IMG/VR virus record: IMGVR_UViG_3300025168_000402
Location: 1 to 30,645 of that record
Source of the DNA: a virus
Length of the DNA: 30,645 nucleotides
Direction: 5' to 3' (one strand)
The notes under the pieces: model-generated
Told to the model about the DNA's origin: nothing
Database searches by the model: none
What the model saw: only the letters and a program-made list of their open reading frames with translations
Shown: positions 11,667 to 28,648 of the stretch, in pieces
Numbering within the stretch: position 1 is the stretch's first letter
Layout of the letters: every line of letters starts with the position of its first letter
Made by a program: the position numbers and the translations under genes

Positions 11667-13834
11667 TAATACCCTCCGCCTCCTGAGAATGATCCGCCGT
11701 CACTACCACCACCATCACTACCACCACCATCAGAATCACCGCCTGCACCACCCGGTGGTGATGGTGGAATACTCGTACCTTCTTCGTCTGGAGGAATGAT
11801 GGGTGGATCTTGAACCGTGCCATCTACGACACCAGTTCCACCCTGTCCACTGTCTGAATTCGAAACTGATCCATCACCACTGTAGAATGATGATGATTGT
11901 GATCTATCTATTATTGTGCTATCTGCACCAGTTGGAACTTGATATCGATCCAATCCAATCGCAAGAGAAGTAGAGATATTATCATATCGTTCTTTTCTAA
12001 GTGCTTTAGTAGTTATTGAGACTTTAATAGAATCGCTGTCTAATTCATCGTATGTTAATATTAAATTATTCGTTGCCAAAACATCTTGATCATCTGGAAC
12101 TGCCGTGAACCGAATAACTTCGCTTCCATCATCGATAGATACAGGAACAAAGGAAGACGATAATGTTATCTTACCTTTCTTATAATTTACTGCACCAACA
12201 TTTGAATTTAAAATTTTCTTGGTTCCCTTTTCAAAGTACAGTAAACGGATAAATCCACGACCATCATCTTCAGCAAAAGCGGTTTGCATTTTACCATTTA
12301 AATCTAGATGTTTAAAATTTGTAGATGTAATAACTGGCATATGACCATCATGTGGATGAAAGATCGGGTTCTTGAAATTTATTGTATACCCGGTAGATGC
12401 CCCTAACGTCGGATATAACCATTTTTGTATTCTTATCGTTGTTTGATTTCCAAGAATAGAATCTTCTGTCTCGTCAATTTTCTCAAGTAATCTAGAAAAC
12501 ACCATGTCTTGCTCAAACTTTTCTAGGTTTGTATCAATGTATGACTTAATATTTGCTTCTGTTAGAATAGCAACCGCTTGTGGTGATAATAAAGTTTTGT
12601 TTGGATTGTATAAAACTTCTGTATCTAATAGTAGATAAAGATACTCTGGGTCGATAACCTCCGGAATTATACTGACAAGGTTCTTACTTTTAACTATGTC
12701 ATTGATAATATTTCTCTTGGCACTTTCATTTAGATACTTACCACTCTCTGGTTTTATAGAGATAAAAACTTTTCCATATTGAGGTGGAGATTCTTCCTCA
12801 CCACCATACACATTAATTGTTTCAACGTCTGCGTATTCTTTTGCTACTAAAGTTTCATAATCGATGGCAGTTACTGCACGATCTTGTGCTTGGAATGTTC
12901 GAGGAGCAAAGTATTTGATGTTTTTAATATCTTCTGGATCAGAACCACCAGAAGAAAAGTCTATAGTTTCCACATATGCATTACCCGAAATCGAGAATGC
13001 CCTGTTTGCAGTAGACTCATTTTTGCCGATATTATTGGCATTACTTCCTGCACTAGAAACATATGTTAAAGTTATGACATTACCATCTGCTAATTCTTGT
13101 CCAACAATCCCATCCCCGAAATATACTTCAAAGAAATTATCTTTTGATTCTTGCAAGAACCAAACTTTGTCTGTTGATTTATAATCTGTAAAGTTTGTTC
13201 CTTTAGACCAAGTATCGAAAAATCCACTTCTATCTGAAGTTGAAGTTTGTACATTTATCACCAGATGTTCTGTATCTACATTTACATCTGGAATTCTAAA
13301 CATTTTGTTTGACACTGATGAGTCATAAACAAAGGAAACAGTTCTTCTTAATCCTTCATAAATTGACACATTAGGAGCAATTCCGTTTCCTAAATTATCT
13401 TGGTTTGTATCTTCTTCAATTAGCACAGGGGTTTTATTAAAGAAAGTATAATTTGTTCCATCAGGACCCGTGGCGGTAAATGTTGTAAATGCAGGCAAAT
13501 ATGTGCCTGATTCATAAGTGGTGTTATACTTTACATTTATAGTAGAAAAGGCAGACTTTTTTGATGTTGGAGTATATCCAAGATGTTTTGATAGAGAAAC
13601 AACAGAGTCTCTCATAACTGCACTGTCTAAGAACATTTCATTCGCAACCATGTTTGCATAGAAACCCATGTAGTGAGTATTGTATGAAAGAACATCCAAA
13701 AGTATAGATAGACCAGATCCTTCGAAGTCATAGTCTTTGAAAACTTCTTGAGACTTCAGATAAGTCTTGAGAGATTCTTTGATATTCAGAAAGTCTAATT
13801 CTGTAAGTTCAAGATTTTTATCGTTGGTTGCCAT
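11666..13834 (-). CDS. 6: Baseplate wedge subunit gp6 (722 aa)
   Basis: The N-terminus is a classic gp6 signature: LDFLNIKESLKTYLKSQ, then FKDYDFEGSGLSILLDVLSYNTHYMGFYANMV, then NEMFLDSA. It belongs to the baseplate J/gp6 family whose dimers form the inner ring holding the wedges around the hub. The wedge core spans about residues 1-640. Residues about 644-722 form an extra low-complexity tail: Ser/Gly/Asp-rich, then Pro-rich (PPIIPPDEE, IPPSPPGG), then GGGSDGGGSDGG and a final GGGGY. T4 gp6 is 660 aa, so the tail explains most of the excess length. The start overlaps the gp25 stop as TAATG and the stop overlaps the gp7 start the same way, so the three genes are probably translationally coupled. 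Identification is secure; the role of the tail is unknown. Confidence 0.95.
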   Translation of the reverse strand: MATNDKNLELTELDFLNIKESLKTYLKSQEVFKDYDFEGSGLSILLDVLSYNTHYMGFYANMVANEMFLDSAVMRDSVVSLSKHLGYTPTSKKSAFSTINVKYNTTYESGTYLPAFTTFTATGPDGTNYTFFNKTPVLIEEDTNQDNLGNGIAPNVSIYEGLRRTVSFVYDSSVSNKMFRIPDVNVDTEHLVINVQTSTSDRSGFFDTWSKGTNFTDYKSTDKVWFLQESKDNFFEVYFGDGIVGQELADGNVITLTYVSSAGSNANNIGKNESTANRAFSISGNAYVETIDFSSGGSDPEDIKNIKYFAPRTFQAQDRAVTAIDYETLVAKEYADVETINVYGGEEESPPQYGKVFISIKPESGKYLNESAKRNIINDIVKSKNLVSIIPEVIDPEYLYLLLDTEVLYNPNKTLLSPQAVAILTEANIKSYIDTNLEKFEQDMVFSRLLEKIDETEDSILGNQTTIRIQKWLYPTLGASTGYTINFKNPIFHPHDGHMPVITSTNFKHLDLNGKMQTAFAEDDGRGFIRLLYFEKGTKKILNSNVGAVNYKKGKITLSSSFVPVSIDDGSEVIRFTAVPDDQDVLATNNLILTYDELDSDSIKVSITTKALRKERYDNISTSLAIGLDRYQVPTGADSTIIDRSQSSSFYSGDGSVSNSDSGQGGTGVVDGTVQDPPIIPPDEEGTSIPPSPPGGAGGDSDGGGSDGGGSDGGSFSGGGGY
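11672..11683 (-). promoter_or_regulatory. Ribosome site for gp7 embedded in the gp6 Gly codons
   Basis: The minus strand reads GGAGGCGGAGGG, the last four Gly codons of gene 6, ending 5 bases before the gp7 ATG at 11666. The GGAGG core complements 16S rRNA well. The poly-Gly tail therefore doubles as the translation signal of the next gene. Confidence 0.75.
11700..11729 (-). repeat. Two 15-bp tandem repeats in the gp6 C-tail
   Basis: TCACTACCACCACCA occurs twice in direct succession (11700-11714 and 11715-11729). The minus strand encodes the GGGSD repeats of the gp6 C-terminal tail. The five-codon unit can change copy number in frame. Confidence 0.85.
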
Positions 13835-14226
13835 TATCGTAATCTCTCCAGTGCAAGATTCAAGGTTTCTATTCTATCGTCATTTTCTAACCTAAAAATA
13901 ATAGTTGCTACCATTTGATGTGTATCGGATATAATTGCAACTCTAACATCTTCCACTATTGCTCTAGGTTCAAAATCCTGAATAACCTCTTTTATCCTAT
14001 CTTTTGTTTCGATGACCGCAAAGGGCCCTGCTAGTTCAAATAATTGATCTGTTATTCCACCGAAGAGGCCTGGTTGAAATGGTCGTTCGTATTTATTTGT
14101 CATTACCAAATTTCGAATAGACCTTTTTACCGCCTCATAATTCGTCTTTAGCGGAACATCTCCTGTAATGGGGTTCCGAGTAAACGAAAGATCTAGATCT
14201 GAAAATTTGTATTTTTTATCTCTCAT
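13834..14226 (-). CDS. 25: Baseplate wedge subunit gp25 (130 aa)
   Basis: This is a short gp25/W0-family protein, the sheath-polymerisation initiator of contractile tails. Features are YKFSDLDLSF near the start, then a TGDVPLKTNYEAVKRSIRNLV helix region, the conserved NKYERPFQPGLFGG stretch (about 55-68) and an ERPF-type Glu, then REV/RV strands to the end. T4 gp25 is 132 aa, which supports the ATG at 14226 (MRDKKYKF). A longer form from 14286 would need a TTG start and would add 20 residues unlike the family, although GAGGGAA precedes that TTG. The ribosome site before 14226 is weak, so coupling to the upstream gene, whose stop is 4 bp away, is likely. Its own stop shares an A with the gp6 start (TAATG). 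Confidence 0.93.
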   Translation of the reverse strand: MRDKKYKFSDLDLSFTRNPITGDVPLKTNYEAVKRSIRNLVMTNKYERPFQPGLFGGITDQLFELAGPFAVIETKDRIKEVIQDFEPRAIVEDVRVAIISDTHQMVATIIFRLENDDRIETLNLALERLR

Positions 14227-14230
14227 ATGT

Positions 14231-14878
14231 CTATTTATCTGCCTGAAGTGTAAGATGTGTAGAAATCTTGCGAACTGACTCGCCAATTATTCCCTCAACA
14301 ACTTCCTCATCAATAGCGTCTACTTTATCTGTCGCACACCACTGGAACATGACAAAACCAGTAATAAGTCCGTGGTGCTTCAATGGTTGTACAGAGAATG
14401 CCAGAACATTGTGTAACTCTAGAAAGTTCTTACAATACGAACTTGCATCTTCTTCTCGCCAATCTCTTTGGAGATAAACCACGGTTGGTTTATCTTTCTT
14501 TATCTGTCGAAGCAAAGAAACACACATAGAGATCAAGATGTTTTGAAGTTTTTCACCACAACTAGAAATACCATAACGAAGAGACTCGTGTGAGGTAGAC
14601 ATTTTTTTCACACCAGAACCATCGAGGAAGTATTCCCCGTTGTGGAACTGAATAATCATTGCCCTTGCGGCATCTACTTTCGTTCGTGCCTCCGTGAGTG
14701 CTTCATGTACTTCGCTGTGCATATCCCATAATTGATCATTTGCCCGGCGGTTTGTTTTGCCGGTTAGTAATCTTTTGAGTGTCTGCTTTAACGTCCATGT
14801 TATACCCATACCGATCAGAGCAATCACGATTCCAAGTTCAACATAAAAACCGAGATCAACTGATTTTAATAAGTCCAT
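14231..14878 (-). CDS. Membrane-anchored GAF-like protein (215 aa), function unknown
   Basis: Residues about 11-30 (FYVELGIVIALIGMGITW) form one hydrophobic segment followed by a basic stretch (KQTLKRLLTGKTNRR), predicting an N-terminal membrane anchor with the rest in the cytoplasm. A helical linker (about 46-70) leads into a domain beginning AARAMIIQFHNGEYFLDG (about 70-87) with KKMSTSHESL next. This FHNG pattern recalls GAF-fold proteins. The remainder alternates strands and helices (PTVVYLQRDW, VLAFSVQPL, ITGFVMFQW), compatible with a GAF fold of about 140 residues. Several cysteines are present. It has its own late promoter (TATAAATA at 14929-14922) and TAAGGA upstream, and is the first gene of the wedge operon. 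A virion role is not obvious. It could be an inner-membrane sensor, a late-function regulator or a membrane-bound assembly factor. Fold and role are inferred. Confidence 0.75.
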   Translation of the reverse strand: MDLLKSVDLGFYVELGIVIALIGMGITWTLKQTLKRLLTGKTNRRANDQLWDMHSEVHEALTEARTKVDAARAMIIQFHNGEYFLDGSGVKKMSTSHESLRYGISSCGEKLQNILISMCVSLLRQIKKDKPTVVYLQRDWREEDASSYCKNFLELHNVLAFSVQPLKHHGLITGFVMFQWCATDKVDAIDEEVVEGIIGESVRKISTHLTLQADK

Positions 14879-14954: not shown

Positions 14955-17900
14955 TTAGTCGTCAAAATCGATTCTAATTACGATATTAGAGAGTATGCCA
15001 CTTCCGGGACGGAACTCGTCATTCTGATCCATGAATGATGCCTGCATGTCTTCATGCAGGTGTAGGAAGAAATCATTCTTACCACCGGCCTGATCTTCGA
15101 ATGGTATTTCTAGATGGATTGAGTCACTGAACGGAGTTACGGCATGTATTCCCTTATCACAGTTATCTGGGAAACCCATGTTTCCATTAGTTGAAGACAA
15201 CATTGTCAGCGCCATGTGCCAACCAAAGGGGTCTGGTAACTTCGGAATCATTGAACATCCAGCGATACCAGGTCCACGTTGTCCTCGAACGTAAGCACTA
15301 GATCCAGTTTCGGGTGGAGTTCCGGCCGGATCAAGACGCAAATCTCCAAATATGTGGATTGTTCCGCTGCCCTGTATGAATTGTCCGTTTGGGTTTCCAA
15401 AGACTCGACCGGGCATCAATCCATCATTGAAAACAGGTACGGTGAATGCGTCCGGATTGTCGAAGAGATCTTCTGTTATGAACACATGTGAGTGATCCAT
15501 AGTAGGATTGGAACCATCTTCTGTACCCCACCCATTCATCATACCTTCGGGAAGTTTTTCTAGATCCGGGTAATTTGTTATTGTTATACTTCGTTCGGTG
15601 GACTGACTTTCTTGTTCTGCCTGATTTAGATCTTTTCCGGGGGTTATTGTAAACGAGAATGATACTGGTACGTTAGCAGTCCAGTTTTTCATGTTATCGT
15701 TTAAATGTACACGCAATGCGTCATCTGTAGTTTTTGCTTTCTGACGACCCGAAGCATCATAATCTTTTCGAGCATATCCAAATATAGCAGGAACACACCA
15801 ATCAACAGGCAAATCCGTTTGATCTCTACCCTCGTTACAGGTTACAAGAAGATCTTCCATACTTCCGTAGCGATCCTTTAGTTGCTTATGTAAATCGAAT
15901 TCTTCTTGTGATAATGGCCAGAAGAAATTACCATTTTGCACAGGGACGTTTCCTGTTTGTGGGTATGCTGGATCGGTTCCAGGCCCGGATACTAATCTAT
16001 CAATGTTTTCAATTCCACCTGAAAAACTAAATTCCGTTCCTAGATTATTGAAATGTCTATGTCCAATTGTAACTTTTTGGTTTCCGGCAAAAATGAATAC
16101 TTCCTTTTTCCAACACCCATCTTTTTCTAGTTCAAATGTGTCTCCATACGAGGTATTACGATTTGGAAGATTCCCCTCACCATTATATCTGTTTTTACTT
16201 TTTCTTGACTGTGTGTTCTGGACATATTGTCCATCACCACTGTTATACCCACGACCTATGATATTAATAGGGAGTGTCATGTACACATCATCCCAGATTA
16301 CGGTTCTCTTGGGAACAAGTGTAACTGTACATTCTATATTATCTTCGTTGAACTTGTATGTTCTTTCCAAATACCCAATACCACCCAACTCAGAAACTCC
16401 ATCAAACGTAGACGGAACATTTTGTGAATTTGAATATAGGAAATCAGTGGGTTTTGCTAAAAAGTTACGATTGAAGTGTTGTTTATGAACTAAAGTTCCG
16501 ATGTGATCCGGGTCAGTGCCTTCAGTCCATTCTGCCGTAGCACTGTCTGACGAAGGTTCTGCCCATGCGTAACCACACCCATCCGCATCTATTGCATCAT
16601 TCCAGACTTGACCCAAATCGGGATTATTTACATCATCCTCCCGCTTATATCGTTTCATATAAATTTGGTTTGAACCCATCCAACCTTTTCGACGACCACA
16701 TAAGACTGATCCATTTTCTGGTGTGGTTAGCAAACTAAAACCACCTCCAGCAGACGGACCCAATGCCCACATGTATTCTGGATCGTGTCCTTTGTTTATC
16801 CTGTTATTCCAATCTTGATCTTGATTACTTGGGTTCCACCCATCAGTATGGATATGACAGTAATACTTGTCTGTTTTTACAGACACACTACCCAGATCTT
16901 GTCTGGTGGCAGAGGTTTCATTACCTGCTGTATTTTTCTGATTGGTTCTCACTCCAATATTATTTTCGTTATATATAACAAAACTAGGCCATAATTTAAC
17001 AAAAGATCCATTGATATGTGCGGGTAGTGGACTCGGCAATTCATTAGGTATTGAATTTGGTGATATTCCAAAGTTTGCGTACTGTGGACCTTGTGTTACA
17101 TCTAATGTATTATCATCCTTATCCATCCATGCAGATGTTGCGTTCCTTGGTGTGTTGATATCATACGATGGATTTACTCCCTTATTACCAAGTCCTTTAA
17201 GTTGCCCGTTAGATTGTAGATCGAAATTTTCACGAAATCTAGTTGGTGAGTATGGATTGTCATTTGTTGGATTCAGTTTAGTTTGAATAAACAGCCTTTT
17301 TTCTATAAAACTAACATCATCTCCGTTGTCTTCATCGAGGTTGAAAGAAACACCATAAGGATCTGTAATATTATGTTGCCACTGACGATACATGTCGTTC
17401 CAGTTTTCGTAGTTTCTCCCAGTTGTCCATGCAACTAGACTGTGACACGCCTCCATCACTGGAATGTCTATAGTATCACCATAAGAATTGCCTATGAACT
17501 CCAAGAAACGACGAGGGGAAGTTGCCCAACAAGAACCATCAACTCTTGAGTTGTAGTCATTACATCCAGCAACAGAACCATCCGGTTCAATTACGATTGT
17601 GTGATTCCAGTAATCGGTTAGATCATTTATCTGACTTTCATAATCACGCAGAGTTAGTTCATTTATGGCAAGAACGTCATCACCCTCACCGTTCTCTATT
17701 ATCTTGTCTCTTCTTTTTAGTAAGTAACCACGGACTTCGGTTAATGAGTATATCGCAAAGGCACAGTAAATATTACAATATCCACCAGACTCTTGCCAGG
17801 TTGGATGATTGTGGTTGTATCGATTGTCTGATATCTTTATATTCCGAAGGAAAAGATAATCAATTGCACTATCGTTAAAACATGCTGCTGCTTTGGCCAA

Positions 17901-19976
17901 CGCAATCCACGCATGAACCCATTGGTTGTGAGCAGAACATATGAGATATCCCGCATATCGTTCGAGGTGATTCATTACACCGATTTTTATTATCTGTTTG
18001 ACTTCCTCTGCATCTTCTCCGGTAAATATATCATCCTCCGTAGATCCAATATCCTCCCAAACATCGAGCAGTGGAATGATTGTGTTTGTAGTAAATGCAA
18101 GTGCGCCACCTCTGTAATCGTCGTTCCAATAAGGACTGTCTCCATTTTGATCGAACTGCATCAATTGATGTAGGAGAGCGAGAACAAGTCTATTTCGAAT
18201 ACCAGCATTCTTATAAAAAGGATTTGCATCACGAAGGAATCCTAGACCCAAGTCTTCTCTGGTATCACCAAGAGAATACATTCTGGCAAGAGGGGCCCCC
18301 AAACCTGAAGTAGGTCCGAGACGAGGAAATTCCTGATCTTTCCAGTTGGAATAAATGTTTCCCTCTGCATCATGAAGATATCTAAACACACTGGCGTATG
18401 GATTTCCTAACGAATTGGGGTTTCCTAACGCATCGAGATCCGCCCCATCAAGTTTAATATCTTGATGTAAGTTTTTATGCCAGTTCCAAAAAACACCAAA
18501 CCAAGGAGAAGTCGGATCCATATTTTGTTCGAATATGTGACATGGTAGAAACTCAAACAATCCCGGTTTTATAACAGCATTGCTAAGTCTATTTACCTTA
18601 TCTTCACCCCAATACTTAGTAACTTCAAAATCGACGTTGAAGTCAGGCGCTGGGCCCAGCGCCGTCTGGAAATCATCCAAGATATTCTGTCTGATTGACG
18701 CTTGCATTTCTCCGGCGTAATCCCACGAATCGCCTTCTAGATCTATACCGGGCCGTCCAACCCAATAGGGATCATCCGGTGTATTTACAAGGCCTTCATC
18801 AACAACAAGTAGTTTATAATCTTGTCTTGCTTGTTTTATGTACTGCCACGCAGATCTTTGATTAGCATTCAAGAATGTAATTCTTTGAGAATCCCAAGGA
18901 TAAACTTCTAAGTCTTCGTCGTACTCGTAACTAATTCCATTGTTCAGTCGTATCGCAGTGTTCCTATCAGAACATAGAATAAGAGGAACATCCGTTGCAC
19001 CATGCCTGAGATAGTTTATCGGTGGTTTAACATCATCCGGTTCCCTATCCTCTACTTCTGTTATTTCATGTGTCTCTACCATCAAAGCATTTGCGTGATC
19101 TGTAGATGATCCATCACCATCATCCAAGTTAACCCAGTCAATTCTATACACCTGTCGAAAACTCTCGTTTCTCAGGTGTTCAGGTCCAGAGATCGAGTAA
19201 TCTAATGTTAGAGAAGGTGTATCAGAAGTTTCATGAACTACCCAAGACCTTCTACGTTCACCAGTTTCTGTAAGGGTTTCGTTCATATCAAATTGTTTGA
19301 TAAGCACATCGTCTGCATCCACGACATCTTTAAATATTTTTACGTTAAATCCGGCAGATCCAGAGAACATGTCTCTTGCCTGAAACCATTGTTTTAGTCC
19401 TGCGTTTGGATCTGTATGATCTATAATCTCCGGCGGAAGCGAACAAAAGTAAACAGAACCGCTTTTTGCTTGTCTATCATCTTTCTTGCAAAGATCAGTA
19501 AATCCCATATCACCTTTCCACCCGTAGGGTAAAGGCGGATCTAAGATCAACTCAACGGTACTCATTCTTCCTTCGCCGTTTATAGATGCGTATATCGTAA
19601 CTATTCGTATTTGGTATACCCCACCAACTTCCGAAGCAGGAACATCAACAGAAACCTGTACAGATTCACCAGACCCTCTGGGAAATATTGCTTCGTGTTC
19701 TGGGTACTTGACAGGCACGGGAGGAGATGCATCAGGTCTACCATAACTAGGTCCGTGGAATACAGTTGGATCTTTGTAATCAACACACTCTAAAAATTCT
19801 TTGTGTAGAAGTCTACCTTCCGGATCCAAAACTTCTATATTATATCCCGGAGCAGAGTTAAACCATAATGCTTCGAAACTTAGTGTAGCGTTAAATGCAT
19901 ATCCACTCTCGTTATCAACGAAGAATGAATAACCGAAGGAGGGTATTGAGTGTCTGCTTTCTGGTAATTCTGCCAT
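14955..19976 (-). CDS. Giant tail-associated protein, putative alpha/alpha-toroid polysaccharide lyase-like (1673 aa)
   Basis: The N-terminal third (about 1-330) is beta-rich, with two probable sandwich domains. Residues about 420-870 are strongly helical and aromatic-rich. They include SAHNQWVHAWIALAKAA (about 681-697) and NHNHPTWQESGGYCNIYCAF (about 721-740), patterns that recall the Asn/His/Tyr clefts of alpha/alpha-toroid lyases such as heparinase- or alginate-lyase-like families. A beta-rich part follows (about 990-1320), with YCHIHTDGW (1039-1047) and HRHFNN as possible metal or substrate His sites. The last 350 residues are again beta-like. The protein has no signal peptide. GATAAATAGAGT separates TAAGGA from the ATG at 19976. 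It is the third of three giant genes between the PAAR tip and gp25, so I infer a virion-borne enzyme acting on host glycans. It could instead be a non-enzymatic fibre. No family is proven. Confidence 0.72.
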   Translation of the reverse strand: MAELPESRHSIPSFGYSFFVDNESGYAFNATLSFEALWFNSAPGYNIEVLDPEGRLLHKEFLECVDYKDPTVFHGPSYGRPDASPPVPVKYPEHEAIFPRGSGESVQVSVDVPASEVGGVYQIRIVTIYASINGEGRMSTVELILDPPLPYGWKGDMGFTDLCKKDDRQAKSGSVYFCSLPPEIIDHTDPNAGLKQWFQARDMFSGSAGFNVKIFKDVVDADDVLIKQFDMNETLTETGERRRSWVVHETSDTPSLTLDYSISGPEHLRNESFRQVYRIDWVNLDDGDGSSTDHANALMVETHEITEVEDREPDDVKPPINYLRHGATDVPLILCSDRNTAIRLNNGISYEYDEDLEVYPWDSQRITFLNANQRSAWQYIKQARQDYKLLVVDEGLVNTPDDPYWVGRPGIDLEGDSWDYAGEMQASIRQNILDDFQTALGPAPDFNVDFEVTKYWGEDKVNRLSNAVIKPGLFEFLPCHIFEQNMDPTSPWFGVFWNWHKNLHQDIKLDGADLDALGNPNSLGNPYASVFRYLHDAEGNIYSNWKDQEFPRLGPTSGLGAPLARMYSLGDTREDLGLGFLRDANPFYKNAGIRNRLVLALLHQLMQFDQNGDSPYWNDDYRGGALAFTTNTIIPLLDVWEDIGSTEDDIFTGEDAEEVKQIIKIGVMNHLERYAGYLICSAHNQWVHAWIALAKAAACFNDSAIDYLFLRNIKISDNRYNHNHPTWQESGGYCNIYCAFAIYSLTEVRGYLLKRRDKIIENGEGDDVLAINELTLRDYESQINDLTDYWNHTIVIEPDGSVAGCNDYNSRVDGSCWATSPRRFLEFIGNSYGDTIDIPVMEACHSLVAWTTGRNYENWNDMYRQWQHNITDPYGVSFNLDEDNGDDVSFIEKRLFIQTKLNPTNDNPYSPTRFRENFDLQSNGQLKGLGNKGVNPSYDINTPRNATSAWMDKDDNTLDVTQGPQYANFGISPNSIPNELPSPLPAHINGSFVKLWPSFVIYNENNIGVRTNQKNTAGNETSATRQDLGSVSVKTDKYYCHIHTDGWNPSNQDQDWNNRINKGHDPEYMWALGPSAGGGFSLLTTPENGSVLCGRRKGWMGSNQIYMKRYKREDDVNNPDLGQVWNDAIDADGCGYAWAEPSSDSATAEWTEGTDPDHIGTLVHKQHFNRNFLAKPTDFLYSNSQNVPSTFDGVSELGGIGYLERTYKFNEDNIECTVTLVPKRTVIWDDVYMTLPINIIGRGYNSGDGQYVQNTQSRKSKNRYNGEGNLPNRNTSYGDTFELEKDGCWKKEVFIFAGNQKVTIGHRHFNNLGTEFSFSGGIENIDRLVSGPGTDPAYPQTGNVPVQNGNFFWPLSQEEFDLHKQLKDRYGSMEDLLVTCNEGRDQTDLPVDWCVPAIFGYARKDYDASGRQKAKTTDDALRVHLNDNMKNWTANVPVSFSFTITPGKDLNQAEQESQSTERSITITNYPDLEKLPEGMMNGWGTEDGSNPTMDHSHVFITEDLFDNPDAFTVPVFNDGLMPGRVFGNPNGQFIQGSGTIHIFGDLRLDPAGTPPETGSSAYVRGQRGPGIAGCSMIPKLPDPFGWHMALTMLSSTNGNMGFPDNCDKGIHAVTPFSDSIHLEIPFEDQAGGKNDFFLHLHEDMQASFMDQNDEFRPGSGILSNIVIRIDFDD
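15041..15060 (-). repeat. Perfect 8-bp stem-loop inside the 3' end of the 1673-aa gene
   Basis: On the minus strand CCTGCATG and CATGCAGG flank the four-base loop AAGA. The hairpin lies about 90 bp before the gene's stop and encodes part of HEDMQASF. There is no T-run after it, so it is not a typical intrinsic terminator. It may be incidental, or it may slow decay or transcription just before the next promoter. Confidence 0.5.
18646..18663. repeat. Perfect 18-bp GC-rich palindrome inside a coding region
   Basis: GGCGCTGGGCCCAGCGCC is a perfect self-complementary 18-mer, 16 of 18 bases G or C, in otherwise AT-leaning sequence. It encodes part of ALGPAPDF in the 1673-aa protein. It could be a protein-binding site, a strong cruciform or hairpin, or chance. 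Confidence 0.7.
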
Positions 19977-19989
19977 ACTCTATTTATCC

Positions 19990-22900
19990 TTATTCAAATA
20001 TCCCAATTGGTGGATCATCATTAAATCCGGGAAGTGGGATACCTCGAAGATCTATTGCACTTTGTGGGAGGACTTGCACGAATTTGTTAATACTGTTGTC
20101 GTAAGATAAAGTAAAGTTATCTCTTAGTACACCTTCCCACTTACCTGTGCCGTTGCTTCCCGATCCTGCCGAAAGGGTGTTTTCGTCCGGTTGGAACAAG
20201 CAGTTTCTAACCCATATTCCGGTAGGAACATTCGTTCTGCCCACATTAGAATCCCAAAATTTAAACGTGGAATTTTGAATCAATGAGTTTGTATAAACAC
20301 CAGTTGTAGGTCTACCGGCCTTGATCCACTGCGTGAAAGAACAGTTACTAATGAATATGTGATCCGAAAGACTAAACATATTATTACCTTCAGTGCCTCC
20401 GTCTGTCCATTCACACGCATAATCAACGTAAGCAATTCTTTCAAATATTGAGTTTGTGGCATCAAGAAGGAATGGTTGGAAGTTCTTCACATTCCAGATG
20501 CGAAGACCGAAACAGATTCTGTTTCTGTTCATCTTGTATGCATTACTACCAAAATGCTGGACACCATCGATATGTGCGCCACTTCCGGGACTAATATCAG
20601 AATCCGAAGCAGTGCAATCAAGAAGCATACGACTAAGAGAAAAAACGTCAGTGTCTCTCGATCCTGTAAAATCTGTATTTCTGATAATAGTAGATCCACC
20701 AAAACCAAGGTATCTGTTAGAAACACGACATCCATCTACCATTTGTGCATAGGTTTTACCATTACCATTTATAAGACCTTGTCCCTGACGCCGGTCACCT
20801 TCTTGGTTTGTATTCTCTGAATCATAATGATAAGTGTTTTTAAACCAGAAATATGAACCATTTTGATTCGGTTGCATATACTGAGCAACCTCATCATCTA
20901 CAGTAATATTCTCAAATTTAGTGTATTTTGGACCAGACCAAGTGAAAAATGCTTTCGGGCCAGAGAATCCTGTTCTACCTAATATAACTTGTTGTGCTGG
21001 ATCAGTCTGATCTAAACTTGGATCTGCACTGAAAGTTACCCATACATCATCGGGACCACCTTCGTATGCAGAGGTTTCATAAACACCGGGAGTTTGTATC
21101 ACGAATTTTGCGTTTTCTTTTTGTCCAGTAAAGTTTCTGTAGGTCCACTTTAATCCATCATACGGATCTTCAGCAGTTCCCGAACCGTTTCCTGTGGGAA
21201 CTATTACAGTAGGTGCATTTGCGTATTTTGCTGGACCCCAAAGGAACATAGAGTGTTCACCTTCACTAATAACTTCAGTTCCCCCACCCGCTATATTCCG
21301 TAGCAAGTGTTCTGGGTTGTTTAAGTAATCTACATCGCCGTTGGGTGTATTCTGTAGGACAAATGGTTTTCCTTGATCTTTAGGATATACTATTGCACGA
21401 ATTTCAATTAGATCATTATTCTCTGGTGCTTGAAGAGTTACCCAATATTCACGATTGCCCGTTCTTGGATTCCGTGTCATCTCATTTACAGTTGTTACTG
21501 GTCCATTGTTTGCCTGAAACTCCACTCTGTCTATACCGTTTGCATGAAACGCAACAACTCCGATATTAAATCCATCTGAATCTATTACCTGCATAGGAAT
21601 AACATTCCACCTTGCAATTGGTAATGTTTGTTGATCTGCTGGGTGGTCTCCACCATCCGAATACGAGGCAGGTTGTGGTGTATCGTTCCAAGTTCTAGCC
21701 AGGCCTGGTTCTAGTAGTTCACCACTCCCAACATCACCACCAGAAGCATCGGGGTTGAGAATATAATCACAAAGATCTCCAGGCCCAACCGTCCCACCAT
21801 TAATATCATCCACCATCAAACTGCTAGACCATGAAGTTGCAGAAACAACTAAACCTTTACTTAGTAACGTATTAACCAGTTTTTTGAATTCTGAGAATAC
21901 CATGAGTCTACCGTTTGGGGTTTTTCCACCTTGAGTATTATTAACCCACGGTGCCGTAATCAAGGACTGAAGGTCAAGAACCGCATGATGTTCGGTTGTT
22001 GCTGGATCTAGATCCCATGTGGTAAAGTCAATAACAAACTGAGAACCTGTATTAACCTTCCCAATGAATTCTCCGTTTTCACCTGAAGTTGGGACAAATA
22101 CACCAGAAGAAATGGGAAACAATCCCCATCCCTTGTTTTTGGTGTAGTCCCAAGTACCATTTAGTTTCATTCCACCATCTGGATCGCGGGGAATCAATTC
22201 AAATATTTGGTTATCAGTTCCGACTATATTAGCGATAGTTTCTATTCGTTGATCTCCCGCCAGATAATCACTTTCGTTGTTTGATCTTGCGATTCTAGTT
22301 CCTGCATCAAACGAAGCATTATCAAAACCACATTGAGAAAGAATATCCCACTGACGTTGCCATTCATCTGCTGGATATACCGATGGTTCTTTTTCTGATC
22401 TTGCCCATCCCGGTGAAAATGCTAAGAGATCATCATCGATAAAATCTTTGCTCGATGTTTCATACGCTTGACCATAACCTATATAACAAAATACTTCTTG
22501 GACACCGGCCGCCCTCAACGCATCTGTAGCAACTTTCCACGAAGAAACCTGATCTCCTCTGGCCTCCTCACCGGGTAAACCATTTGGTGTGAATGGAGTA
22601 GGATATGTATTTACAAGACCTATTTCCGTATCTTGTCCGATTAGAGAATTATTAGAACGAGTATCGTAGGAATTTGCCCCATCGAGAAGCATACCTGTAC
22701 CGGCCTTGTTTGTGAAGTATCCCTGATTGTCTTCGAGATTTCCGCTTAAAGGATCCCCTGCCACAAACCCAGCAGGATTTCCAATCATCACACGATTAAA
22801 CATTCTTCCACCGGCAAGGGGCTTGTTTATAATCTGTTGTTGCACATAAAACAATCTACCATTTTGCTCGGGGTTCTGTAGAGCAGAAACATTACCAAAC

Positions 22901-23415
22901 GCTGGGGTATGTAACCAATCCGAACGACCACCATCCACCCCACCTGCTATTCCGTAAGATTCTCTGAACCCAGAGAAAGATGCAAAGTAGTTGATGTAGA
23001 ATGGTGATCGATCTATAGTACGGAAATCTACATCACCACCTCCGGGTTCACCGCCACCACCTCCGGGTTCACCAGAGTTTCCTTCGAACTCACTAATGTA
23101 ATGGCCTAGAGTGGTTTCTGGACTGTTTTTTTCAACCTCTACTTTGTATTCAATGTTGACAATATTTTGGTTTGGAATCCAACTAAAATTATCTACAAAG
23201 AAAGGATCTCCGACCTGGAGATCACCGGGTAATAAGTTTTCAATCAATGTCCAATTTGAAGTACCCGAGACACGACCGTAAAGATTATATGATAATGCGT
23301 TTTCTGCAATTATAAATTTAATTTTATTTGAAGCATTACTATCTTCAACAGATATAACACCGTTGTTGGAATTTGTTAAAGAAGTACCTACAAATACAGT
23401 TCTATTCCATGTCAT
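19990..23415 (-). CDS. Multidomain tailspike/depolymerase-like protein with beta-helix (1141 aa)
   Basis: Residues about 1-108 form a fibronectin-like beta domain, followed by a Gly-rich linker (GEPGGGGGEPGGG, about 115-127). Residues about 130-570 look like an alpha/beta, perhaps TIM-barrel, domain: VATDALRAAGVQEVFCYIG (about 295-313) and QCGFDNASFDAGTRI (about 361-375) resemble strands with acidic residues at their ends. Residues about 600-690 are an Ig-like domain (VEFQANNGPVTTV, REYWVTL, IEIRAIVYP). From about 735 to 1110 is a right-handed beta-helix, seen in GSGTAEDPYDGLKWTY and in repeated IENC/IRNTDF/ISNCSF/IQNSTF turns. HIDGVQHFG (948-956) is a likely active or ligand site. This order fits cyanophage-type tail proteins that bind or cut surface glycans. 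The ATG overlaps the previous stop as ATGA. Beta-helix is fairly certain; enzyme activity is inferred. Confidence 0.8.
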   Translation of the reverse strand: MTWNRTVFVGTSLTNSNNGVISVEDSNASNKIKFIIAENALSYNLYGRVSGTSNWTLIENLLPGDLQVGDPFFVDNFSWIPNQNIVNIEYKVEVEKNSPETTLGHYISEFEGNSGEPGGGGGEPGGGDVDFRTIDRSPFYINYFASFSGFRESYGIAGGVDGGRSDWLHTPAFGNVSALQNPEQNGRLFYVQQQIINKPLAGGRMFNRVMIGNPAGFVAGDPLSGNLEDNQGYFTNKAGTGMLLDGANSYDTRSNNSLIGQDTEIGLVNTYPTPFTPNGLPGEEARGDQVSSWKVATDALRAAGVQEVFCYIGYGQAYETSSKDFIDDDLLAFSPGWARSEKEPSVYPADEWQRQWDILSQCGFDNASFDAGTRIARSNNESDYLAGDQRIETIANIVGTDNQIFELIPRDPDGGMKLNGTWDYTKNKGWGLFPISSGVFVPTSGENGEFIGKVNTGSQFVIDFTTWDLDPATTEHHAVLDLQSLITAPWVNNTQGGKTPNGRLMVFSEFKKLVNTLLSKGLVVSATSWSSSLMVDDINGGTVGPGDLCDYILNPDASGGDVGSGELLEPGLARTWNDTPQPASYSDGGDHPADQQTLPIARWNVIPMQVIDSDGFNIGVVAFHANGIDRVEFQANNGPVTTVNEMTRNPRTGNREYWVTLQAPENNDLIEIRAIVYPKDQGKPFVLQNTPNGDVDYLNNPEHLLRNIAGGGTEVISEGEHSMFLWGPAKYANAPTVIVPTGNGSGTAEDPYDGLKWTYRNFTGQKENAKFVIQTPGVYETSAYEGGPDDVWVTFSADPSLDQTDPAQQVILGRTGFSGPKAFFTWSGPKYTKFENITVDDEVAQYMQPNQNGSYFWFKNTYHYDSENTNQEGDRRQGQGLINGNGKTYAQMVDGCRVSNRYLGFGGSTIIRNTDFTGSRDTDVFSLSRMLLDCTASDSDISPGSGAHIDGVQHFGSNAYKMNRNRICFGLRIWNVKNFQPFLLDATNSIFERIAYVDYACEWTDGGTEGNNMFSLSDHIFISNCSFTQWIKAGRPTTGVYTNSLIQNSTFKFWDSNVGRTNVPTGIWVRNCLFQPDENTLSAGSGSNGTGKWEGVLRDNFTLSYDNSINKFVQVLPQSAIDLRGIPLPGFNDDPPIGIFE
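23034..23073 (-). repeat. Two perfect 19-bp repeats at 21-bp period encoding the Gly-Glu-Pro linker
   Basis: The 19-base unit at 23034-23052 recurs exactly at 23055-23073. The 21-bp period equals seven codons and produces the duplicated GEPGGGG linker of the 1141-aa protein. The site can expand or contract in frame by slippage, varying linker length between the N-terminal domain and the rest. Confidence 0.85.
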
Positions 23416-26400
23416 CCTCTTCCTCCTCCGGTGCTAGAATCATCAATTATAGTCGATCCATCATTGGGACTGATATCTGGTTCATCTACTGTATCACATC
23501 CCGGATCCTCGGGGTCTCCGCCTTCATCATCAACCGTGCCTGGATCAATTTCACTGTCCTGTAGAATTATAAAAAGTGTTTCATCAGACAACGGTGGATC
23601 TAGATCTGTTATGGGTGGATCAACATCAGGATCTTCGATGGGATCTAAATCGAACAATATCCTAGCATATTCAGTTTCATAATCTATGAATTTATAAAAG
23701 TTGAGTGCATTTTCTCGTGTGATGTCTCCAAACTCACCTACCGTATTCCATGCGCCGGGATATATTTCTCCATCTAAAAGTTCCGGATCGAATGAATCAG
23801 GAACACACATATCACATATGGTTCTAAGTCGTGTATCACCAAACGCACTACTCAATGGATATGGTTCTCCGTCACTTTCTCGTCCGCGAAGATACCACTC
23901 CCATTTTGTTAAAGGCCACCACTGTTGCCAACTTATTGCCATCACTGTTTTTGGGATGACAGGATCTTCTCCGGCCACCAGATGTTTCCAAATTTCAAGT
24001 GGAATCCAAGGGAAATCAACTCCAACACAATTTCGATCTAGTTCCTGATCTGTCTGGTTTTCTAAAACTTTACCTGTAAATTTTCCGATGATTTGTCCAC
24101 CTAAACGGTTACTAAGATAATCATTTTCGGTTGGAACATTAACATCAGGGAAATGTTTTTCATATGGTCTTTCATCACAACTATTCATAGAATTGGATGA
24201 TGCCGCTTTCATTTCGTATGCATGTGATATCATGACTCCGGCCTTTTGTCCTAGTCTTTCTTCCATTGCTCGTATATAATTTCTAAGAGGCATTGTCATA
24301 TTACTGCCCGATTGAGAAAAATATAGTTCTGCATTGTTAAAGTCTATTGAACCAACCATCAATTCTCCAATGTTCTTTGTTGATGATCCAAGACCAAGAT
24401 TCGTACGAATCTCATCCATCTCTTCTCTAGTAACAGTGCTAAATTGATCTGGTAAACCTGTCAAATTGAGTCGATAAGATGCATCTCCATTCCAGGCATC
24501 GTACAGTGTAGCGTTCATCATACCATCAATATGATCTCTCGCAACTTCCATTGTATACAATCCCTCGGCACCCGGATCGATATCTGGTTCGTTGAAACAA
24601 AGATGCCAATACCTTGCATCACAACCAATCGGACCTTGATATACTGCTATTCTTCTGCTGGGAGTTCCAACAAATTCAGAAGGCGAACCATCAGGTAGTG
24701 TAGGTGAATCACTCTCGTCCACTACAGTTTTTGCATATGCCACGAGATCAACAAAAGTTTCTACCATTCTCTCTAATTTTATTTGCGAGAGTACCAATCG
24801 TTCTTTGATCTCTTGAAAACTCGGTGGGTTTTGGAGGCCCTCGCTGGCAATATCGAAAGGAAACTGCGTAGGAACTCCTTGACACGATTTATCATCTGGA
24901 CCCAATATATGTCGAGTTTCCCATTCGATTTCAGTTCTGTCGTTTACCACACCCATTAATCGTGCTAGTCCTGCTCGTTGTATAATTGAGAATATACATC
25001 TGTCATAATTTGGTATCTCCATATTATACAACATGACTCCGAACTCACCAACTAGATCGACACCAGAAGCATCTGCTATATTTTTCTCACTTTTGCTGTT
25101 TGTGAGAATTCTATTTTTCATGCGTTCATATAAACATTTGAGCATCGCGTCCCACTGATCTAAATTTGCTCGTTTTAAAATGTGCTTTCTTGTGTCATCG
25201 TTATTATGCCATATACCGGGTGTCCAAATTACTTGCTGACCTGGAAGTCCACCGTCAGAACCCGTTGTAAGTGGTTGTTCTTTCAATGTTCCTAGTAAAC
25301 CTTCATCTGGATCCCACCAACATCCCGGATCGCCTAAGAACATCAATTCGTTTCCTCTTAAGTGTCCATACTCACTACTACCAAGAGTAGAATATATTTT
25401 CTCACCAGTGATAACATCGTAGTCCTGATCATCAACCCAGTGAGCAACAAATTTCCAATTGGTTCCGACTGATGGTGCTTCATCAATTATATCAGCATAA
25501 ACCGATGCAAGGATTGGTGTACTATCGTTTTGGGGACCATTCAGTATGGTGCCGGTCCTTCTCTCGGGTAGACATCTTTTTTGATTAACTCCACGATCAC
25601 GGATAGATTCCATGTAGTGCAAGTATTGGCCCTCCATCCAATCGGAATCTTGAGAACCTTCACCCCGATCTGCTACGAAGTATTCATGAGAAAGACCGGT
25701 TCCAGTCACCGTTTTAAATTTACCATAACCACTTGCCCACCACCGTTCCATGCTAGTTCTATAATATAATCCACTGGTCCCTGGTCTTTCGGAGTCCGTT
25801 TTCATAACACCAGTTCGCCATCTAGAATAATCGGAATCAGAACCATTATTAAAATATCTCTTTCTGGTTTGTATATGGGGATAAAATGGTAGCCATGTAT
25901 CGTCACTAATATTTGGACTTTCTTGCCAACCTCGCGGTGGTTCTGAAAATCCACAATACCATCTGTTCCAAAGGGTGAGTTCCTCGGTAGTCATAAATGG
26001 ATTCCCCGTATCCGGTGGTTCGCCATTTATCAAATCTGACGCAAGATAAAAACCGGCGCCGCCAGGGATGTAGGTATCATCTCTGTATCCCCAATCGTCA
26101 ATTGGATTGGGTAATCCGAATTGATTGTTCTCGCCCCATTTGTCTTTGATATTGTGGTTCATAATTGTTCCGTTTGTGGTAACACAATTATGGTCTCTAG
26201 GAGGCGAATCGATAAAATAGTTAGAAACAAAATCAGAACCCATCACAACAGGCCCATAGTTATTGTGAATTTCCCATACCAATTTATTACCCACACCAGC
26301 AATGTCTGCTGCTTCTGATATTCTTGTAAAATAGTCAGTGAGTCGTGCGCCGCTGTTCTCATTGTTATCTACAATCGTCCACTCAAATGGCCAATGTCCT

Positions 26401-27176
26401 CTATTCTGATCTGATCCTCCACATGTTGCAGCAATCGTAGCATAATCCAGCGGTTCGAGCATCCTCGCAGTGTATCCTCCGGGACTAAGCATTGTTTGGA
26501 AAAACGAATCCATAAAATCACCGGCCGGCGTTCCTTTTTTTGCTGCCCAATATTTAATGCTTCCTCTGTTAAGATACGGAACATAAGCACAACCAACTGG
26601 GTTATCTGGGTATGCGGACTTGTATCTTGTAATACCAGCAATCCACGCTTCGACAATCCATTCTCTTTTAGTTTCGAAGTTAAACGGAACGCTATTAAGA
26701 ACTGCTGAACTCATCTCTAGAGGATTTCCTGCCTCTTGGTTCATCAGAATTAATGTGTAATAAAAAACTGACGCATCAAAAAACCCACACTCCATATCGA
26801 GATTGATAGCAATATCATTATCCCACGGTAAACTAAACGATCCGTGTGGACCACCACCGATCGGAAAATCATTTCCGTGCATACCCGATGCGATTGAGTT
26901 GAACGTCCACGGACGATTTTCTCGAAGACCGATCGGATCTCCTAATGTATCGTTTGTTCTTTGTAGTTGAGCATCAACCCAATCATCCATGAACTGGTTC
27001 GCCTCGATTTCCGTATTTGGAAATCGCTGGTACATCAGACTATCGGTTTCGCTCGCAAGAATCCAATGTGTTAGCAATACGTCATCACGACCTTGTTTGA
27101 CTTTATTATGTAAAGCAGGATCATACGCTCGAACGGGCATAGACTTGATGACTTTTTCATTCCATACAAATTGCAT
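23412..27176 (-). CDS. Giant unassigned tail-associated protein, enzyme-like, with acidic C-tail (1254 aa)
   Basis: I do not recognise this 1254-residue protein. It is unusually rich in Trp, Tyr and Asp and mixes strands and helices, with stretches such as GCAYVPYLNRGSIKYWAAKKG (195-215), WPFEWTIVD (262-270), KLVWEIHNNYGP (298-309) and KFVAHWVDDQDYD (575-587). These strand-then-acid patterns resemble TIM-barrel carbohydrate-active proteins. A second such region follows (GVDLVGEFGVMLYN, about 705-718; VGSIDFNN, 941-948; MAISWQQWWPL, 1079-1089). Residues about 1175-1247 form a Pro/Asp-rich, very acidic tail ending in GGGRG. No signal peptide is visible. It starts 3 bp after the previous gene and overlaps the next start as ATGA, so it belongs to the same late transcript as the PAAR tip gene. 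I infer a virion protein with possible glycoside-processing activity. A purely structural fibre is equally possible. Confidence 0.7.
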   Translation of the reverse strand: MQFVWNEKVIKSMPVRAYDPALHNKVKQGRDDVLLTHWILASETDSLMYQRFPNTEIEANQFMDDWVDAQLQRTNDTLGDPIGLRENRPWTFNSIASGMHGNDFPIGGGPHGSFSLPWDNDIAINLDMECGFFDASVFYYTLILMNQEAGNPLEMSSAVLNSVPFNFETKREWIVEAWIAGITRYKSAYPDNPVGCAYVPYLNRGSIKYWAAKKGTPAGDFMDSFFQTMLSPGGYTARMLEPLDYATIAATCGGSDQNRGHWPFEWTIVDNNENSGARLTDYFTRISEAADIAGVGNKLVWEIHNNYGPVVMGSDFVSNYFIDSPPRDHNCVTTNGTIMNHNIKDKWGENNQFGLPNPIDDWGYRDDTYIPGGAGFYLASDLINGEPPDTGNPFMTTEELTLWNRWYCGFSEPPRGWQESPNISDDTWLPFYPHIQTRKRYFNNGSDSDYSRWRTGVMKTDSERPGTSGLYYRTSMERWWASGYGKFKTVTGTGLSHEYFVADRGEGSQDSDWMEGQYLHYMESIRDRGVNQKRCLPERRTGTILNGPQNDSTPILASVYADIIDEAPSVGTNWKFVAHWVDDQDYDVITGEKIYSTLGSSEYGHLRGNELMFLGDPGCWWDPDEGLLGTLKEQPLTTGSDGGLPGQQVIWTPGIWHNNDDTRKHILKRANLDQWDAMLKCLYERMKNRILTNSKSEKNIADASGVDLVGEFGVMLYNMEIPNYDRCIFSIIQRAGLARLMGVVNDRTEIEWETRHILGPDDKSCQGVPTQFPFDIASEGLQNPPSFQEIKERLVLSQIKLERMVETFVDLVAYAKTVVDESDSPTLPDGSPSEFVGTPSRRIAVYQGPIGCDARYWHLCFNEPDIDPGAEGLYTMEVARDHIDGMMNATLYDAWNGDASYRLNLTGLPDQFSTVTREEMDEIRTNLGLGSSTKNIGELMVGSIDFNNAELYFSQSGSNMTMPLRNYIRAMEERLGQKAGVMISHAYEMKAASSNSMNSCDERPYEKHFPDVNVPTENDYLSNRLGGQIIGKFTGKVLENQTDQELDRNCVGVDFPWIPLEIWKHLVAGEDPVIPKTVMAISWQQWWPLTKWEWYLRGRESDGEPYPLSSAFGDTRLRTICDMCVPDSFDPELLDGEIYPGAWNTVGEFGDITRENALNFYKFIDYETEYARILFDLDPIEDPDVDPPITDLDPPLSDETLFIILQDSEIDPGTVDDEGGDPEDPGCDTVDEPDISPNDGSTIIDDSSTGGGRG

Positions 27177-27179
27177 TAA

Positions 27180-28376
27180 TCAGAGTCTCCCGATGACGTT
27201 TTGTGCTTCTGCTGCTCTCTGTTCAGTCGTCCCTGCTTCGCTTGCAGACATTGCGAGCAATCCTTCACTACCCAACGATTCCTGAATACCTGCAATCGCA
27301 TTCTTTGCTGAAGCAGATACAGTATCTATTGCACCCTGAGCAAACTCCGTGATGCCCGACTGCACTGATCTAACAGCGTTACCTACTTCTTCTGCTAGTT
27401 CATTTGCCTTTGCTTTCGCTTGGTTGATTGCATCTGCACCTGCCGCAACAAATGGGGGTGCTTCTGGTAACTCTGGAGTTGGAATCGAGAATGTACCTGA
27501 TGGGATTGACGTTCCTTGTTCGAATGCCTGTAGTGCATCAAGTTTGCCCTGAAGACCAGGAACTGCAAACTCCTTCAACAACTGACCAGTCCAACACGGA
27601 TTTGATCGTACTGCCGCAATGAGAGTATTTGCGACTCCATACTTCTGTACCATGTTTCTCATATTACTAAGATTATCAACTGTTTGGTTATAACTGTCCA
27701 ACGCATTGTTTTTTGTTTCGGTTAGTCCACCCGCGAGATCTGTTACTTGTTGAACAAGTTCATTTTCTTGAATATCACCACCAAGGAATGAACCAATTGT
27801 TTGTTGGAGTATATTGTTAGACGCACCGACCGATTGCATCAATGTAAGTCCACCGTCTTCAAGAATTAAATTGAAGTTTGGTCCAAAGTTATCTTCGATC
27901 ACATCCTGTCCGGGAAGTCGGAGGTTTGCCTTCATGCTGTTGAATGTATCAGACAGACTGACAATATTATTCTGATTGAAGGCATTGGCATCAAGTGTGT
28001 TGACAGCACCGGACATTCTATCTGTTGCGTCTTTGATGTTGTTAAGAATACCTGCGTTCGGACTTCCGATTTGTGCGCCGGGTTGTCCGTTCAATTCACC
28101 GAGCAAGTTGTTCATGCTCTGTAGTGCCGAAACTGTTGCAGGTTGGAGTCCTGTTCCCGGAGGAGCATTTTCATTGTTATCTAATATATTTGTAATCGAC
28201 AGTTCGTTATCCTGTGCAATTGCCTTCGCTGTGTTGACGATCGTACCAACCGGGTTCTGAAAGGCGTTGCCAGTCATCACATCGTTGATGATGTCCAGTG
28301 AAGTTTGCCCGAGATCTTGTGTCTGGGGATCGCACTGTGGATCGAGTGGGTTGAAATCTTCTAGACTTAATGGCAT
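27180..28376 (-). CDS. Ala/Asn-rich protein of unknown function next to the PAAR tip (398 aa)
   Basis: I do not recognise this 398-residue protein. It is rich in Ala, Asn, Leu and Gln and probably mostly helical, with a Pro-rich break (IPTPELPEAPPF, about 300-311) and a C-terminal helix of the form INQAKAKANELAEEVGNAVRSV. SNPCWTGQLLKEFAVPGLQG (about 263-282) is the only segment that looks tightly conserved-like. There is no signal peptide or clear transmembrane helix. The start at 28376 (MPLSLEDF) is chosen because its ATG overlaps the PAAR stop as TAATG, with GAGG upstream. An upstream in-frame start at 28421 would lie inside the PAAR gene. Its position between the spike tip and the giant appendage proteins suggests a baseplate or spike accessory, perhaps a connector or assembly factor. 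That is inference. Confidence 0.75.
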   Translation of the reverse strand: MPLSLEDFNPLDPQCDPQTQDLGQTSLDIINDVMTGNAFQNPVGTIVNTAKAIAQDNELSITNILDNNENAPPGTGLQPATVSALQSMNNLLGELNGQPGAQIGSPNAGILNNIKDATDRMSGAVNTLDANAFNQNNIVSLSDTFNSMKANLRLPGQDVIEDNFGPNFNLILEDGGLTLMQSVGASNNILQQTIGSFLGGDIQENELVQQVTDLAGGLTETKNNALDSYNQTVDNLSNMRNMVQKYGVANTLIAAVRSNPCWTGQLLKEFAVPGLQGKLDALQAFEQGTSIPSGTFSIPTPELPEAPPFVAAGADAINQAKAKANELAEEVGNAVRSVQSGITEFAQGAIDTVSASAKNAIAGIQESLGSEGLLAMSASEAGTTEQRAAEAQNVIGRL

Positions 28377-28648
28377 TATCCGGCCCTCACATTTCCTGAA
28401 CCTGTTGCTGAGTGTCCACACGATGCGGCATCACCTGCACGACATACTGGTATTCCGCCGACTCTAACCATACCAGATCCCGTTACTATAACGGGGGCAG
28501 TGTGTTGGTTAGGACAATCTCCGCCGCAGTGATTTGCAATCAAACTCCCAATTTGGGCCACAGGCATTCCGTTCACCTTGACGTTTGAGTTTCCTGTTAA
28601 GATTGTATTTCCGGCCGTGTCCATTCCGACTCTTGATATTCCTGGCAT
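28376..28648 (-). CDS. 5.4: PAAR-repeat spike-tip protein (gp5.4-like, 90 aa)
   Basis: The 90-residue sequence is a PAAR fold. Repeated GN-Val and Val-Gly-Gly-type turns (NTILTGNSNVKVNGMPVAQIG, VIVTGSGMVRVGGIPVCRAGD) are joined by a Cys/His-rich segment. Candidate zinc ligands are H40, C41, C45, H49, C69, C77 and H79. PAAR proteins cap the membrane-piercing spike of contractile tails and type VI secretion systems; T4 gp5.4 is 97 aa. GAGGAG five bases before the ATG is an excellent ribosome site, and a TATAAATA late promoter lies 15 bp upstream. Its stop overlaps the next gene (TAATG), so it heads a late operon. The richness in Cys is more than the usual single Cys and two His. Confidence 0.92.
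   Translation of the reverse strand: MPGISRVGMDTAGNTILTGNSNVKVNGMPVAQIGSLIANHCGGDCPNQHTAPVIVTGSGMVRVGGIPVCRAGDAASCGHSATGSGNVRAG

Follow-up and report, generated by a model that had tools for sequence, protein, structure and literature searches.

The locus described here raises the question of what is encoded by a very large open reading frame that stands among phage structural genes and resembles no described protein family. The window, by which we mean the whole stretch of DNA analysed, is a virus record of 30,645 bases, and the frame in question (positions 23412-27176, minus strand) encodes a protein of 1254 residues, called A below, with a body of unknown fold and an acidic C-terminal tail. 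The frame opens with an ATG and its limits had been given exactly in an earlier note on this DNA; read on the plus strand, these positions are interrupted by many stop codons. A single relative of A was found in the IMG/VR collection, on a 42-kb contig (L002), and it is 72% identical over residues 1-1253. The two genes differ in the body by a dS of 0.72 and a dN of 0.20 (dN/dS about 0.27 over 1176 aligned codons). The existence of this relative, together with the low dN/dS ratio, argues that A is a functional gene under purifying selection. As developed below, A is probably a host-recognition or sugar-degrading part of the virus, and its acidic end probably fastens it to the particle.

The window is a tail and baseplate fragment of a distant T4-like phage, as judged from its baseplate gene matches and from the nearest relatives of gp6. 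The genes downstream of A are T4-type baseplate genes. Among them are the baseplate wedge genes gp25 (13834-14226, minus strand) and gp6 (11666-13834, minus strand), which match phrog_261 (E 4.9e-39) and phrog_219 (E 1.3e-164), respectively, in a PHROGs profile search; the start of gp25 is taken at a conserved ATG, and a longer open reading frame reaches 14286. Wedge-type proteins, gp8-like proteins and a DUF4815 protein are also encoded downstream of A, and two tail-fibre-like proteins, p411 and p245, are encoded upstream. The nearest relatives of gp6, at 37-38% identity, belong to phages of Pelagibacter and Methylophilales that are classed in Kyanoviridae.

Protein A is unrecognised in the collections searched, as the earlier note had claimed: it has no family in Pfam, PHROGs or NCBIfam and no credible match in the PDB, and a tblastn search of 50,697 phage records found nothing. 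No ordinary fibre family matched A confidently over its full length, and pieces of A used in a family search gave matches only at E 0.3 and 2.5. A genome-contig scan with A found none. There was no credible match in 963 sampled bacterial genomes, where a negative outcome proves nothing unless a positive control accompanies it. The draws, whose class and phylum are named after the titles of their centre loci, gave 0 of 294 genomes for a Planctomycetota-type draw, 0 of 274 for Gammaproteobacteria and 1 of 395 for Bacteroidia, the last (E 0.009) covering 44 positions with an internal stop and taken as chance. A further set gave one match among 11 genomes (E 0.14), again with an internal stop. AlphaFold2 models were unusable, probably because there are too few homologues, both for A residues 1-1182 (2 sequences; mean pLDDT 26.5) and for the middle domain of protein C (4 sequences; pLDDT 32.6; see below).

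The earlier note had suggested one or two catalytic barrels on the basis of Trp-rich and repeated strand-ending acidic segments. A glycoside hydrolase TIM barrel, with a (beta/alpha)8 fold and paired catalytic acids, would be a candidate of this kind. The richness in Trp is real: Trp makes up 3.31% of the first 1179 residues of A versus 0.32-0.88% of the baseplate proteins gp6, p616, p793 and p1746, and 2.04-2.39% of proteins B and C (described below) and of the proteins that take the places of A and B in the related contig L009. The acidic segments were not borne out, since a pattern of three hydrophobic residues, an optional residue and then D or E occurs 16 times in A versus 18.6 times in shuffled versions, 757 of 1000 of which reach 16. 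Alignment found no internal duplication in A. A likeness suggested by eye, of residues 20-330 to D-x-E barrels of a GH25/GH56-like kind and to the C-terminal domain of the L009 slot-B protein, found no support in an alignment: 16 of 300 shuffles reach its score of 43, and the aligned piece falls elsewhere than residues 20-330.

A, B (1141 aa; 19990-23415) and C (1673 aa; 14955-19976) are three giant genes in one orientation, on the minus strand, between gene D (27180-28376) and a gene for a 215-residue protein (14231-14878) that lies beside gp25. D and the 215-aa gene, both also on the minus strand, are the slowly diverging left and right flanks of what behaves as a cassette. The gaps D-A, A-B and B-C are 3, -4 and 13 bases, so that A and B overlap by 4; the last codons of A (GGA GGA GGA AGA GGA) resemble a Shine-Dalgarno sequence for B, with the stretch GGAGGAGG right ahead of the start of B. 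None of the three proteins has a PHROGs or NCBIfam match or a credible Pfam match, B and C likewise gave 0 tblastn matches in the 50,697 phage records, and A shows no relation to B or C. Phages HTVC008M and Melnitz-3 carry no gene of more than 700 codons in the 15 kb read upstream of gp25. D is probably 398 residues long, from a conserved ATG, rather than the 413 of the longest open reading frame, because a 90-aa open reading frame (28376-28648, minus strand) overlaps that ATG at 28376.

Six related contigs altogether came from scans in which A, B, C, D and the 215-aa protein served as queries. L002/L008 carries A, L007 begins at C, and L005, L006, L009 and L010 carry another protein in the slot of A; these four are near-identical and were counted once, as one lineage, giving two slot-A body types in total. 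The slot-A protein of L009 has 945 residues and a body unrelated to that of A (alignment score 51, reached by 64 of 200 shuffles), and the N-termini of the two bodies are likewise unrelated. Comparison with L008 shows gp25, gp6, p616 and p793 to be 98-100% identical in protein, with synonymous divergences of 0.011-0.026, whereas A, 73% identical, has diverged by 0.45 and C, 58% identical, by 0.71; D and B are intermediate (0.25 and 0.15). Against L009 the synonymous divergences are 0.64-0.69 in gp6, p616 and p793 versus 0.24 in D, 0.19 in the 215-aa gene and 0.023 in the end of C after residue 1600. These contrasting divergences indicate that the cassette, with its flanks, is exchanged separately from the baseplate genes. 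The suggestion that whole bodies are swapped in slot A draws on only the two body types.

What the two slot-A proteins do share is the tail. As the earlier note had said, the last 75 residues of A are acidic and Pro-rich (24 D/E, 10 P, 1 K/R), and their net acidity of 23 compares with a maximum of 20 when the protein is shuffled 5000 times. The charge-hydropathy line places this Pro/Asp tail (residues 1180-1254 plus the stop codon; 23412-23639, minus strand) on its disordered side, apart from a hydrophobic core (residues 1196-1210; 23547-23591, minus strand) that is its best conserved piece. The last 80 residues of A and of the L009 protein align with a score of 113, which 0 of 2000 shuffles reach (mean 46.7, sd 8.2, largest 88). 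When the tail of A was compared with 818 distinct C-termini of open reading frames from all loci gathered, only slot-A proteins scored above 49: L002 at 280, the L009 type at 113 and an L006 variant at 63. The three tails have in common D-P-P-[LF]-S-x-E-x-L-x-x-I-x-Q-D-[ST]-E-x-x-P-G, followed by a Gly/Asp/Pro linker, one Cys, acidic residues and P-D-I. The window and L009 tails share 27 residues, and 15 of these are encoded by different codons, arguing that it is the protein sequence that is conserved. In the viral collection, a degenerate DNA pattern for the tail core occurs in no more than four contigs, each of them found before, and tail peptides had no match in the phage records, in a search where the BLAST low-complexity filter may hide such peptides. 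In L006 (5770-5890), immediately past the tail core, the slot-A frame differs from that of the other near-identical contigs; the distal tail may be dispensable, or the contig may contain an error.

The earlier note had offered two roles for this tail. Calcium binding found no support: A contains no loop of the RTX or dockerin/EF-hand type, nor any D-x-[ND]-x-[DN]-G, and the aligned tails of the relatives do not retain the looser aspartate pattern that A has at residue 1234. The idea of a flexible tether gained ground, because the tail is disordered by composition and is kept on an unrelated body in the same slot; it is strengthened into that of a conserved C-terminal connector on swapped bodies.

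We give an even chance to the explanation that A belongs to the late proteins of a T4-like (Kyanoviridae-like) phage, where it would be virion-associated and exchangeable, would interact with the host and would dock by a C-terminal connector. For A we infer a virion location, host contact, attachment, activity on polysaccharide, and a docking role and partner. The body of about 1180 residues would meet the host surface, probably binding and perhaps cutting a surface polysaccharide. It would be replaced by recombination, and the connector, comprising the last 65-75 residues or so, would stay on different bodies. In the connector, acidic and disordered linkers would flank a short hydrophobic core and one cysteine, and it would hold the body on an invariant part of the tail such as D or the N-terminal part of B, which is translated immediately after A. 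More tentatively, and in our judgement less likely than not, the locus could represent a reversed receptor-protein design, in which a C-terminal disordered docking peptide, with its hydrophobic core and a conserved cysteine that is possibly a covalent lock, mounts any large N-terminal body, within a three-protein cassette beside gp25 whose exchange does not depend on the baseplate.

A C-terminus held in common may be something other than an anchor, because tail bodies of unrelated kinds are known to carry C-terminal intramolecular chaperone domains (PMC10684548). The tail of A resembles these domains of tailspikes and fibres in being a common C-terminal piece on unrelated bodies, and it might be a folding or assembly tag, either chaperone-like itself or bound by a chaperone of the phage, and perhaps cleaved off afterwards, with the body attached N-terminally. 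However, a chaperone domain is folded, whereas the tail is short and its composition disordered, A lacks a Pfam match up to E 1 (known chaperone family included), and the two bodies show no relation at their N-termini, so that we regard such a tag as improbable. One might also suppose that the tail is mainly a recombination joint, its DNA staying alike because the crossovers that exchange bodies fall in it, with the last codons of A serving the start of B and the peptide being of little function. The GGAGGAGG stretch of A does precede the start of B, and synonymous divergence between the window and L002 is 0.093 in residues 1180-1235 versus 0.46 in the body, which may reflect recent recombination there and not only selection. 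DNA homology alone would nevertheless not keep the 15 of 27 shared residues that have other codons, and 33 aligned residues differ between the window and L009 tails; a joint of this kind seems to us a poor prospect.

The lack of a structural match for A would also suit a cytoplasmic or lysis-stage enzyme that is encoded in a late operon and is no part of the virion. This is very unlikely, given that A sits between tail-fibre-like and baseplate genes and is exchanged together with B and C beside gp25. A virion-associated host-interaction protein with a docking connector is the explanation that we favour.

Comparison with known systems bears on this explanation in several ways. Receptor-binding proteins are usually described as anchored by a conserved N-terminus and variable towards the C-terminus (PMC10684548). 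Of these classical traits, A shows a variable body that is exchanged between close phages and lacks the conserved N-terminal anchor; the order is reversed in A, whereas the neighbouring B follows the usual order and keeps its N-terminal part. Like modular receptor-binding proteins and depolymerase tailspikes, for which the same source gives a three-part scheme (PMC10684548), slot A combines a constant part with unrelated exchangeable bodies in a fast-changing locus beside baseplate genes. Unlike modular tailspikes, A has a constant part that is C-terminal, short, disordered and acidic, it matches no family, and its depolymerase role is putative. A literature search for a phage tail fiber with a conserved C-terminal and a variable N-terminal part returned no match, a weak result because wording varies and coverage is partial. 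In pelagimyophages, the host recognition cluster lies between VrlC and gp14 (PMC7029224); it resembles the A cassette in that hypervariable host-recognition genes stand in the structural region of a Kyanoviridae-like phage, and differs from it in position, the A cassette being directly upstream of gp25, between D and the 215-aa gene. That source also mentions another plastic region that splits the baseplate module in some cyanomyophages, and this region may correspond to the A cassette (PMC7029224).

If the tail is a docking tag, it would be a portable handle explaining how unrelated, very large proteins mount at the same virion position, and it provides a concrete peptide to test. The bodies, of about a thousand residues each, have no recognised relatives outside a small phage group in the collections searched, so that solving a single structure could bring to light a new family of enzymes or adhesins.

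B is modular, with a conserved N-terminal part and an exchangeable remainder: kin of its domain at residues 125-560 sits further along the slot-B protein of L009 (score 182, reached by 0 of 300 shuffles), and a C-terminal part of about 585 residues is absent from L002, whose B stops near residue 555 of the window protein. C, the conserved third member, is present without its last 220 residues or so in L002 and L007. Judged by eye from its motifs, C resembles a heparinase-type polysaccharide lyase (alpha/alpha toroid plus beta-sandwich), and this reading has no supporting profile match. A match between a C domain profile and tachylectin-2 (E 0.022, 58 residues) was judged too weak, and C was found in 0 of 295 sampled Bacteroidia genomes.

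Some smaller observations concern the window at large. The word NATAAATA, presumably late-promoter-like, occurs five times on the minus strand and once on the plus strand, and was dropped as promoter evidence since about 6 to 7 per strand are expected by an estimate from base composition. The gp6 protein of this group carries a long Gly/Ser/Asp/Pro-rich C-terminal extension, ending in GGGY, past the part matched by phrog_219. The 215-aa protein has an N-terminal hydrophobic stretch (by eye), a match to phrog_14038 (E 7e-12) and a weak GAF-like Pfam match under the cut-off. It is 97-99% identical in all relatives, though the synonymous divergence of gp6 from L009 is 0.65, and by these comparisons its gene is unusually constant for a tail-operon gene.
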